Origin: Candidatus Segetimicrobium genomatis | Lineage (GTDB): Bacteria > Sysuimicrobiota > Sysuimicrobiia > Sysuimicrobiales > Kaftiobacteriaceae | DNA length: 38,213 nucleotides | Assembly (NCBI GenBank): GCA_005882295.1 | Contig: VBAI01000014.1 | Location: forward strand, 1-38,213 | Direction of reading: 5' to 3' | Shown here: positions 744 to 37,746 of the stretch, piece after piece | Numbering within the stretch: the first letter of the stretch is position 1 | Layout of the letters: every line of letters begins with the position of its first letter | The notes under the pieces: model-generated | Database searches by the model: none | What the model was told of the DNA's origin: nothing | The model's input: the letters and a program-made list of their open reading frames with translations, nothing else | Made by a program: the position numbers and the translations under genes

Positions 744-827
744 GTTGGAAAGTTGGAGCGTTGGAAAGTTGAAAAGTCAACGTGGAAACTCTTCAACTCT
801 CCAACTCTTCAACTCTTCAACTCCTCC
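744..827. repeat. Mirrored word-array E1 (word GTTGRARA, 8 bp)
   Basis: Left arm 744-777 gttggaaa gttggagc gttggaaa gttgaaaa gt; right arm ~787-827 is the reverse-complement word array (aactcttc)n. Confidence 0.85.
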
Positions 828-1914
828 TGTAGAACGGTAACTTCACGACCCGGGCGTCCTCCAGCCGGCCTCGAATCTCCACCTGCAGTGGGGTGCCGGG
901 GGGAGCATAGGCCCGCTCGACATACCCCATGCCGATGCTCTTGCGGATCCACGGTCCGAAGGTACCGCTGGTCACCTGCCCGATACGCCGGCCCTCCGCC
1001 TGCAACGCGTATCCGTGTCGGGGGACGGCACGCCCCTGCATCTCAAATCCTACAAGTTTCCGGGCCACACCGCGCGCTTTCTGGGCCAGCAGGGCCTCCC
1101 GGCCGATGAACGCCACCTTGTCGAACTTCACCGTCCAGCCCAGTGGAGCCTCAAGCGGCGTCGCCGTCTCATCAATATCATTCCCGTAGAGCATGTACCC
1201 CGCTTCCAGCCGCAGGGTGTCCCGCGCGCCCAGACCCGCCGGCGCAAGGCCGTGAGGACGGCCGGCCTCTACCAGCGCGCTCCACAGGGCCGGGGCTGCG
1301 TCCCACGCACAGGCGATCTCAAACCCATCTTCTCCAGTGTACCCGGTGCGGGCGACCAGGCACCGCAGCCCCGCCACCTCCAGCCCATCGGTGAAATGAA
1401 AGGACGCCAGCCGTGTGAGATCGGCCCTGGTCAGCCGCTCAAGGATTGACTGTGCCTTCGGCCCCTGCAACGCGAGCAAGGCGAGGTCAGCGGACCGGTC
1501 GCGGGCCGTGGCCGCACGGGTGTGCTCGGCGATCCACTGGAAGTCTCGCTCTGTCCGGGATGCGTTCACGACAAAGAGAAACCTGTCGCCCGTCAGCCGA
1601 AACACCGTGAGGTCGTCGATGATTCCGCCCGACGGCAGGCACACCGGGGAATACAGTCCCTGGCCGGGGATCAACCGGGCGGCGTCGTTGGTGATGAGAC
1701 GCTGCACCGACTCCAGCGCGCCGGGACCGAAGACCTCTACCTCCCCCATGTGGGAGACGTCGAACAGACCGGCGGCCGTGCGCACGGCGTGGTGCTCTTC
1801 GACGATGCCGGCGTACTGCACCGGCATCTCCCAGCCTCCGAACTCCACCATCCGGGCGCCAGCGGCCCGGTGCACATCATACAGGCTGGTACGCTTGAGG
1901 TGTGTGCTGGCCAT
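817..1914 (-). CDS. gcvT: Glycine cleavage system aminomethyltransferase T
   Basis: 365 aa; LKRTSLYDVHRAAGARMVEFGGWEMPVQY, TGYTGEDGFEI motifs. Confidence 0.95.
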   Translation of the reverse strand: MASTHLKRTSLYDVHRAAGARMVEFGGWEMPVQYAGIVEEHHAVRTAAGLFDVSHMGEVEVFGPGALESVQRLITNDAARLIPGQGLYSPVCLPSGGIIDDLTVFRLTGDRFLFVVNASRTERDFQWIAEHTRAATARDRSADLALLALQGPKAQSILERLTRADLTRLASFHFTDGLEVAGLRCLVARTGYTGEDGFEIACAWDAAPALWSALVEAGRPHGLAPAGLGARDTLRLEAGYMLYGNDIDETATPLEAPLGWTVKFDKVAFIGREALLAQKARGVARKLVGFEMQGRAVPRHGYALQAEGRRIGQVTSGTFGPWIRKSIGMGYVERAYAPPGTPLQVEIRGRLEDARVVKLPFYRRS

Positions 1915-1928
1915 TTCGCATCAACTGC

Positions 1929-2014
1929 GGGACTAGGGATTGGGGACTAGGGACTCGCGACTACGAATCAGCCCCATTCTGCGGTTGAGTCCCCAGTCCC
2001 CGGTCCCCAGTCCC
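1929..2014. repeat. Mirrored word-array E2 (word GGGACTA/GGGGACT)
   Basis: Left arm 1929-1963 gggactagggattggggactagggactcgcgact; right arm 1987-2014 gagtccccagtccccggtccccagtccc. Confidence 0.8.
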
Positions 2015-2659
2015 GCTTTTTAGCTCAGCTTCGCGCTGCCGCAGGAGGGCGATCACTTCGTCGTCGGTCGTTTGTGCGAAGTTTTCGTAGAACTGGCCGA
2101 CCGCGTAGAAAACCGGAGGCCTGTGGAGACATACGACGTCGTCGGCTTCGGCGTGCAGCCGGTGCATGCTATCGGCCGGCGCGACAGGAATGGCAACGAC
2201 CAGCCAGGCCGGACGCATCGCCCGCACCGCCCGCAGAGCCGCAATCATCGTCGATCCTGTGGCGATTCCGTCGTCCACCACCACCGCCACTGACCCGGAG
2301 AGATCTGGAGGCGGCCGGTCGCCGCGATACAGGAGCATCCGCCGCTTGATCTCCACACTTTGTTCCGCGATCTCCGTCTGCAGATAGTCGTCGGCGACCC
2401 GCAGCGCCGCTACCAGGGCCTCGTCCAGGTACACGGTTCCGTCGTGAGCGACGGCGCCGATGGCCAGCTCAGGGTTCCCCGGAGCCCTGAGCTTGCGCGG
2501 GATGACCACGTCCAGCGGCGCACGCAGCGCCACGGCCACCTCATACCCGACGACGACGCCACCACGAGGGATCGCGAGGATGTGGGGCCGGCGGTCCTGA
2601 TAGATGCGAAGCGCCGCCGACAGTTGCTCCCCGGCATCCCGGCGGTCGCGAAACAACAT
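1961..2659 (-). CDS. Phosphoribosyltransferase-domain protein
   Basis: PRTase motif VAVVVDDGIATGSTMIAALRAVR; IPRGGVVVGYEVA. Confidence 0.85.
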   Translation of the reverse strand: MLFRDRRDAGEQLSAALRIYQDRRPHILAIPRGGVVVGYEVAVALRAPLDVVIPRKLRAPGNPELAIGAVAHDGTVYLDEALVAALRVADDYLQTEIAEQSVEIKRRMLLYRGDRPPPDLSGSVAVVVDDGIATGSTMIAALRAVRAMRPAWLVVAIPVAPADSMHRLHAEADDVVCLHRPPVFYAVGQFYENFAQTTDDEVIALLRQREAELKSGTGDRGLGTQPQNGADS

Positions 2660-36841: not shown

Positions 36842-37274
36842 CCTCAACTTGCTCGGCGAGCGGGAACCCCACATCTACGGCCGCGAGTCGATGCAGGAGA
36901 TCAACGCGAAACTGGCTGAGCTCGCCCGGCGGGAGGACGCGGAGGTGGAGTTCTACCAATCCAACAGCGAGGGCGCCATCATTGACCGTCTGCACGCCGC
37001 CCGCAAGGACAGCGACGCCGTGGTGATCAACGCGGGGGCACTGTCGCATTACAGCTACGCGCTGCGCGATGCCATCGCCGCCATTCAGATCCCGGTGATC
37101 GAAGTGCACATGACGAATGTCGTGGCCCGGGGGGAGTTCCGCTCGACCCTGGTCCTCGCCCCGGCATGCCAAGGCGTCGTCTACGGCTTCGGAGCGAACA
37201 GTTTCCTTCTTGGACTGCGCGCCGCCATTGAGGTTGCGCGCGACCGCGCCGCCGCGCCGCCGCGGGGGTCGTGA
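36810..37274 (+). CDS. aroQ: 3-dehydroquinate dehydratase, type II
   Basis: [53 protein letters not shown]; GTG start overlaps aroKB. Confidence 0.95.
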   Translation: [154 protein letters not shown]

Positions 37275-37277
37275 GGC

Positions 37278-37643
37278 ATGCATATCCGCGGCATCCGTGG
37301 GGCGACGACGGTCGAGGAGAATTCCGAGCCGGCCGTGCTGGACGCCACGCGTGAGCTCCTGCGGCGGCTGGCGCAAGACAATAACATCGAGCCTGACGAG
37401 ATCGCCGCGATCCTGTTTACCTGCACCCCGGACCTCACCGCCGCCTTCCCCGCGGAGGCGGCGCGCCAGCTGCAGTGGACGCACGTCCCGCTGATGTCCG
37501 CCATGGAGATCGGCGTCCCCGACAGCGTCTTGATGTGCATCCGCGTGTTGATCCTGTGGAACACGGCCCGGTCGCAGGAAGAGATTGTGCACGTGTACCT
37601 GCGGCGGGCCGCATCGTTACGGCCCGATCTCAGCCGCCGTTGA
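37278..37643 (+). CDS. aroH: Chorismate mutase, AroH type
   Basis: MHIRGIRGATTVEENSEPAVLDATRELL; CTPDLTAAFPAEAAR; VHVYLRRAASLRPDL. Confidence 0.95.
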   Translation: MHIRGIRGATTVEENSEPAVLDATRELLRRLAQDNNIEPDEIAAILFTCTPDLTAAFPAEAARQLQWTHVPLMSAMEIGVPDSVLMCIRVLILWNTARSQEEIVHVYLRRAASLRPDLSRR

Positions 37644-37746
37644 CAACCTACACAATTAACTGATGATTTCAAATGCGAAGCAGCCAGTGATGTTTGTTGC
37701 CCGTGATTGTGTAGGTTGTGTAGTTTGTGTGGATTGTGTTGGTTGA
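37643..37746. repeat. Mirrored word-array E16 (word GATTGTGTAG, asymmetric arms)
   Basis: acaacctacacaattaa ... gattgtgtaggttgtgtagtttgtgtggattgtgttggttga. Confidence 0.8.

Follow-up and report, generated by a model that had tools for sequence, protein, structure and literature searches.

Word palindromes at bacterial gene ends: a shared vocabulary, replacement at orthologous boundaries and a possible DNA-level origin

Introduction

Paired arrays of a short repeated word have been described near gene ends in Xanthomonas. In the account of Rehm et al. (2015; PMC4692102), the GGGAATC heptamers form close convergent pairs on opposite strands (70 in Xcc and 75 in Xac), which are mostly intergenic, nearer to the upstream gene and its stop codon, and scarce between divergent genes; 83% of the heptamer repeats retain their context between two relatives. 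Degenerate heptamers, of class TDNGATT or NNTGAGT, also build the P6b stem of the trnL intron in Nostoc and Calothrix, where one class has been independently replaced by the other, repeatedly, at the same locus (Kaasalainen et al., PMC4476775). Here we describe word palindromes, in which a tandem array of a short word is followed, beyond a loop, by an array of the reverse-complement word. They were studied in a stretch of 38,213 nucleotides, which was analysed whole and is called the window below, and in related genomes.

Cyanobacterial STRR heptamer arrays consist of intergenic tandem short words, occupy many loci per genome and are patchily distributed across phyla. TAACTGA arrays are direct repeats of one word, apart from a single indirect case, and most lie immediately 5' of start codons (PMC4679880). 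The REP and REPIN elements, which go with RAYT transposases, are sequence-defined and bear GTAG or CGTC as a tag on one end (PMC3733652, PMC3116915).

The word palindromes resemble the Xanthomonas type in that tandem units of 7-9 nt stand in two close convergent arrays (366 cases, with a polarity of 314 to 0), just past stop codons (median 6 nt) and rarely at divergent boundaries (12 of 340). They differ in that dozens of words with periods of 7-10 coexist and swap, whereas Rehm et al. deal with one heptamer word per genome, and in that replacement by a different word is common here, compared with the 83% kept in context there. A single dominant, G-rich, G-quadruplex-capable word of the Xanthomonas type was not found; the words are many, and CTACACAAC and GTCTACTTG are not G-rich. 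For a polarity fixed across words, unique loops, symmetric mismatches and a limit on perfect stems, the available part of that account holds no counterpart. With the Nostoc P6b stem the palindromes share the construction from repeats and the swapping of words at one site, but P6b is a single intron locus with two words only, unlike the genome-wide gene-end elements described here. Like the STRR and TAACTGA arrays they are intergenic tandem short words at many loci per genome with a patchy distribution across phyla; unlike the latter, which are direct, start-side arrays of one word, they are inverted pairs after stop codons and use many words. As short, numerous, mostly extragenic palindromes, many of them 3' of genes and in genomes that also carry Y1 transposases, they recall REP and REPIN. 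However, their word is variable, their arms consist of tandem units and an AACTRC/GYAGTT cap stands on both ends in some classes; neither a sequence-defined palindrome nor a one-ended GTAG or CGTC tag was found. Integron attC sites, which are folded sites with conserved core sites that IntI recombines in cassette arrays, come to mind from the location past stop codons and from the AAC...GTT ends, but the word palindromes lie between core genes.

An earlier note on this DNA knew of no named family of this design. This holds in part only, since paired convergent heptamers near stop codons have been published for Xanthomonas, and word-swapping stems for Nostoc. What is new beyond these two cases is the coexistence of many words, their site-wise replacement and the negative tests reported below. 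No accepted origin or function for paired short-word repeats was found in the literature.

Results

Genomes and detection

The window is contig C285 of the 2.86-Mb metagenome-assembled genome (G000) of an uncultured soil bacterium, whose genus we take to be Candidatus Segetimicrobium (family Segetimicrobiaceae, phylum Sysuimicrobiota in the NCBI taxonomy). Two sister species of the same genus, G001 and G002, were used for comparison. The sample, 1.7 Mb in total, covers about 30% of G000 and 15% of each sister genome, and many contigs were picked for containing words; the intergenic shuffle control, consisting of the window and 16 unselected G000 contigs (C1-C16), is free of this choice. A palindrome was called where a tandem array of period 7-10 had a reverse-complement partner at most 180 bp away.

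Word palindromes far exceed chance

The window holds 13 word palindromes, which confirms the architecture that the earlier note had reported for at least 13 gene boundaries. Twelve were found by the mechanical detector and the 13th, after parB, as an inverted repeat with a perfect core of 21 bp. The expected enrichment over shuffled intergenic sequence was equally clear: a reverse-complement word pair was present in 24 of the 103 intergenic segments of the control and a direct pair in one of 103, while 100 dinucleotide shuffles gave no segment with either. Tandem arrays of period 6-11 numbered 120 in 290 kb but only 4 after dinucleotide shuffling. When the threshold was relaxed, 146 arrays were obtained, 79 with a reverse-complement partner at most 160 bp away and 8 with a direct one. 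From the three genomes 366 palindromes were obtained (164, 109 and 93). Strong folding, also foreseen in the note, was found for the 12 window elements submitted to RNA folding (z-scores -2.6 to -11.7). The architecture is real and lies far above chance.

A shared vocabulary with one polarity

Each locus had been credited with a word of its own. This does not hold, the vocabulary being shared genome-wide: matches of the GTCTACTTG type (up to 3 mismatches) numbered 157 forward and 157 reverse in G000, where the reversed control pattern gave 1 and 0. Within the window three loci have GTCTACTTG and two have the CTACACAA word. When an element is read 5' to 3', on whichever strand, a given word always stands in the first arm: among words with at least two occurrences, 314 palindromes had this polarity and none the reverse. 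Because this polarity also holds for words that are not G-rich, base composition is not its explanation. Each of the three genomes has such a vocabulary, with leading words of its own. In the GTCT class the final three bases are mostly YTR in G000, whereas in G001 and G002 they are for the most part mixed or C-rich; hence, the word variants are species-specific.

With 28-100 kb sampled per genome, word palindromes were seen outside the genus in three further members of the family (G004, G005 and G007), while G003, G006, G008 and G009 yielded none. GGGAYT arrays occurred in 18 of 386 genomes searched, several distant ones showing the same paired architecture. In a scan of named genomes for GTCTnCYTR, among the matches listed, the pattern was repeated across many contigs only in Segetimicrobium and was mostly single elsewhere. 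Repeats of the reversed control pattern, NTYAGGG, gave many matches in the unrelated genomes G268, G146, G328, G351 and G373, so that other phyla own different heptamer words. CGTTGRAR arrays, some of them paired, were met on two IMG/VR viral contigs, L289 (about 11787-11875) and L290; these are possibly viruses of word-carrying hosts, or misassigned host DNA.

Placement at gene ends and an outer cap

Placement was determined with a simple codon-usage gene caller. Tandem genes are separated by 280 palindromes (24% of such boundaries sampled) and convergent genes by 48 (34%); the 12 at divergent boundaries correspond to 10% of these, and four lie inside called genes. The element follows the stop codon closely; the median distance from its end to the next start is 23.5 nt. 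Unpaired arrays in sense orientation lie at a median of 9 nt past the stop and antisense ones further downstream; in their positions they therefore behave as leftover arms. One word palindrome, AGTCTNCAC (L189 11727-11860, in G004:C1), directly follows an apparent tRNA gene and not a protein gene.

An outer cap, AACTGC or AACTAC, was present at 92 of 728 element ends where about 6 were expected. Elements of the CGTTGRA and AGTTGRA classes lack it. An origin as a by-product of the stop codon was rejected, since the cap is equally common on the start side (47/280) and on the stop side (41/280).

The elements are not copies of one another

Loops of at least 18 nt from the 366 elements gave a single within-genome match, which itself consists of word repeats. 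Matches in both arms of two loci did not extend beyond about 30 bp, and their number was only slightly above expectation. Whole-element copying was rejected on these observations, and the note's view that the elements are not copies of one sequence family is upheld. Whole-element transposition does not leave one genome-specific word at dozens of loci whose loops are unrelated, and with loops unique to each locus the common terminal inverted repeats and internal sequence of a MITE were not found. Copying of the loops from elsewhere in the genome was likewise rejected: external matches are mostly word repeats or, in 2-3 loops, another short repeat family. The latter (one variant being CCCCACGC...GCTCGGGG) occurs in the loops G001_C43:102610, G001_C50:16882 and G000_C135:10325 and elsewhere, and looks like an ordinary REP-type element.

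Turnover at orthologous boundaries

In 240 comparisons of orthologous boundaries, some counted from both genomes, the relative's palindrome had the same word 73 times, a near one 37 times and a different one 69 times; in 23 further cases the relative had only an array and in 38 no palindrome. Boundaries in sister species thus often hold a palindrome with another word, and the architecture outlasts its sequence, as had been claimed. Among the word swaps are those after aroC, between aroE and aroC and between gyrB and gyrA (Table 1). A homologous loop was kept by 4 of 9, 7 of 11 and 10 of 10 same-word pairs in three genome comparisons, and by 1 of 23 different-word pairs. As different-word pairs rarely share the loop, a swap is mostly the arrival of a different element at a preferred site, that is, whole-element replacement. 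With same-word pairs left out, occupancy of a given boundary remained associated between genomes, with odds ratios of 4.1 (p 0.006), 11.4 (p 7e-6) and 4.4 (p 0.06).

One lineage-specific gain was found, an element in G001 being absent from both sister and outgroup. Differences in presence between 94%-identical genomes mostly concern the whole element including the loop. Filled and empty sites showed no clear target-site duplication, although their flanks are too diverged for certainty. Vertical descent is evident from the arms, which score 34 with their orthologues and 21 with their own partner arm at about 94% genome identity.

Arms, stems and RNA pairing

The longest perfect stem inside one element does not exceed 22 bp, and stems of at least 25 bp occur in 0 of 365; among same-word arm pairs from different loci, 2-5% reach a perfect match of at least 25 bp. 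Long perfect pairing between arms would therefore seem to be avoided, most naturally through hairpin cleavage or replication instability, although short-read assembly could contribute to this limit. Loss of the hairpin nuclease SbcCD was considered as a cause and rejected: SbcD-like proteins (below the curated cut-off) are found in 9 of 10 family genomes, with palindromes or without.

The order of units in one arm is weakly related to that in the other, the true order ranking 0.60 among permutations. In G000, the distance in the last three bases is 0.28 between the arms of a locus, 0.27 within an arm and 0.44 between loci. The intra-palindrome templating suggested in the earlier note is contradicted on several counts: an element's own arms share fewer long perfect matches than same-word arms of different loci, unit order is barely register-specific, and an arm is nearer to its orthologue than to its own partner.

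Selection on RNA pairing tolerates G.U but not A.C mismatches. At tandem boundaries, 331 G.U and 336 A.C mismatches were counted on the sense strand. Terminator-like hairpins of the same genomes, the positive control, had 13 and 2, respectively (p 0.007); this G.U excess shows that the test has power. No Rfam family matched in the window. The RNA hairpin envisaged for these loci stands as a strong in silico fold, but there is no G.U excess, and a selected, functional hairpin is not indicated.

Elements of the window

The genes of the window follow the order typical of a replication-origin region (parAB, gidB, jag, yidC, dnaA, dnaN, recF, gyrB, gyrA, then aroE, aroC). Its elements are listed in Table 1.

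Table 1. Word palindromes and single arrays of the window (p, period in nucleotides).
Position	Strand	Element	Context and features	Same boundary in relatives
743..823	.	word palindrome, GAGTTGAA/AGTTGGAA (p8)	gcvT / gcvH gap; fold -40.7 kcal/mol, z -7.0	
1929..2014	.	word palindrome, GGGACTA/GGGACTG (p7)	phosphoribosyltransferase gene / gcvT gap; outer cap AACTGC at left	
2751..2779	.	single array GGATTGC (p7), without partner arm	decayed or half element	
4482..4588	.	word palindrome, CTACACAAC (p9)	luciferase-domain / MFS boundary	G001: other word, CAATCTNCG type
7244..7357	.	word palindrome, TTGCGTC / GACGCAACAA (p10)	htrA / luxR-type boundary	not in G001
9277..9338	.	word palindrome, GTGAATT / AATTGTA (p7)	3' of small open reading frame	
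10679..10754	.	word palindrome, GGAAACGG (p7)	after parB; perfect 21-bp core, one of the longest perfect stems	
19298..19421	.	word palindrome, GTCTACTTG (p9)	dnaN / recF	G001: GTCTACMGG; G002: degenerate GTCTTCCTG version
23654..23737	.	word palindrome, CGGGAACG (p8)	gyrB / gyrA; begins one base past gyrB stop codon	G002: CGGAAACG; G007 (another genus): CGGGAACG
26847..26931	.	word palindrome, unlike arms: CGGAARCG left, CGGGAACG right	5' of GNAT gene	
31162..31291	.	word palindrome, GTCTACTTG (p9)	after ABC permease gene; AACTGC cap; z -11.7	G001: fragment left; absent from G002
32898..32925	.	single arm GGGAAAC (p7)	second arm remnant GGGATT just upstream; gene-loss junction between two palindromes	
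33831..33940	.	word palindrome, CGTTGAAR (p8)	overlapping the stop codon of aroE; aroC follows	G002: same word; G001: AGTTGGAA
35093..35205	.	word palindrome, GTCTACTTG (p9)	after aroC; AACTGC cap	G002: CGTTGAAA (p8)
37643..37745	.	word palindrome, CTACACAA / TTGTGTAGG (p9)	short left arm	absent from G001 and G002

Between the metallopeptidase gene and aroE (32864-32948) the window lacks a histidine-phosphatase/phosphoglycerate-mutase-like gene (assigned by eye), which is present at that place in G001, G002, G003 and G005. The GGGATT and GGGAAAC arm remnants, from two palindromes joined at this point, suggest a deletion by recombination between elements.

Two further features of the window were noted. 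The dnaA/dnaN gap (18098-18147) is the likely replication origin, with TTATCCACA-type boxes followed by AGTATTAGTACTAGTACTAGT, which we take to resemble a DnaA-trio unwinding element. The hairpin GGGGTCCCTCACGGGCAACCATCTCGTGAGGGACC followed by a T-run (29370-29425), upstream of a transporter gene and conserved in G001 and G002, is an ordinary terminator or attenuator.

Discussion

The explanation we lean towards, with somewhat less than even confidence, is that the word palindromes are DNA-level repeat elements, each born whole by convergent writing and then inherited, lost or replaced. Such an element would arise as a complete unit of a short one-word array, a unique filler loop and a reverse-complement array, usually within about 10 nt past a stop codon. 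The word is drawn from the genome-wide vocabulary, has one fixed direction, inward from both ends, and would be supplied in trans. At an opened site, template-directed or copy-in synthesis might add the same word to both 3' ends, which would then be linked by filler; the product would be much like two ends capped by the same repeat and fused head to head. Afterwards the element is inherited vertically and diverges, is deleted, or gives way to an element with another word at the same boundary, and long perfect pairing of the arms would be removed by hairpin cleavage or replication instability. Of this account, the common vocabulary, the polarity, the unique loops, the position at gene ends, the turnover, the lack of an RNA pairing constraint and the limit on perfect stems are observed, while extension from two ends, a source of the word in trans and the way in which perfect hairpins are lost are inferred. 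Inward extension from two ends with filler joining would account for the polarity, the shared words, the unlinked loops and the loose unit order. A more specific proposal, which we consider unlikely, is that an activity other than RVT_1 writes tandem words onto DNA ends from a source in trans, in a telomerase-like manner; the palindromes would then be scars of head-to-head joining at gene ends and the vocabulary the species-specific imprint of the source.

Several points weigh against birth by convergent writing. No writing enzyme was found, and RVT_1 is absent from G000-G002, the three richest genomes, so that a telomerase-like enzyme of that family is unlikely; a reverse transcriptase was rejected as the writer on the same ground. 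The polarity would survive ordinary whole-element copying too. The AACTRC cap has the look of a recognition site and would sit better with a mobile element. The locus G000_C53:4106 retained its loop while its word changed. Additionally, long arm matches between loci are in about two-fold excess in G000 (p8 and p9), which fits some inter-locus copying; there is little or no such excess in G001 and G002.

The main rival, to which we give a modest chance only, is a mobile element of the REP or MITE kind, in which a Y1 (RAYT-like) or other transposase recognises the AACTRC cap and the hairpin and the loops are altered during or after movement. The caps at both ends speak for it, as do the presence/absence polymorphism, loop included, between 94%-identical genomes and the distribution of Y1_Tnp genes, which all six palindrome-bearing genomes of the family have and the four that yielded no palindrome lack (five genera, kinship uncorrected). 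Its difficulties lie in loops that no two loci share, in the want of any two-arm match between loci beyond about 30 bp, in the two classes that lack the cap, and in the Y1 genes themselves: those of G000 and G002 have no word array within about 2 kb, and the one at G002_C88:3466-4440 (L163) carries at its flanks an inverted repeat of its own, GGGGTCAAGTCTTGACATAGC, that bears no relation to the words. An exception is G004:C156 (L064 2153-2207), in another genus of the family, where one 2.5-kb locus contains both a Y1 transposase gene and a word palindrome, GTCGTTA. Ectopic gene conversion, by which one palindrome would pass an arm to another already present, would fit shared words with unlinked loops, the excess of inter-locus arm matches in G000 and the locus with its loop kept and its word changed. 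It cannot, however, change the period (7, 8 or 9), for which there is no homology, nor seed empty boundaries, and with the near-absence of that excess in G001 and G002 we regard it as improbable.

Hardly better placed are selected 3'-end RNA hairpins (terminators, mRNA stabilisers or translational-coupling stops) whose word drifts since only the stem matters. The position just past stop codons, the rarity at divergent boundaries and the strong predicted hairpins are what such elements would show, but the equality of G.U and A.C mismatches beside the control hairpins, the lack of an Rfam match in the window and the avoidance of perfect stems argue against them. The least probable reading, in our view very unlikely, is the local origin by slippage and intra-palindrome template switching that the earlier note had proposed. 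Both arms of a locus in G000 do draw on the same unit pool, as the last-base distances indicate; against this stand the genome-wide vocabulary and fixed polarity, perfect matching that is poorer within a locus than across loci, with no recent homogenisation, and the gain and loss of palindromes whole, loop included.

With one lineage that has dozens of words and comparable sister genomes, the origin of such repeats becomes testable. Birth as a whole, one polarity, unique loops, no hold by RNA pairing and limited perfect stems speak against transposed copies, selected RNA hairpins and local slippage, and these rules point to an undescribed DNA-level process. For the genomes that carry them, the elements appear to serve as substrates of gene loss, and their fast turnover could make them strain markers.

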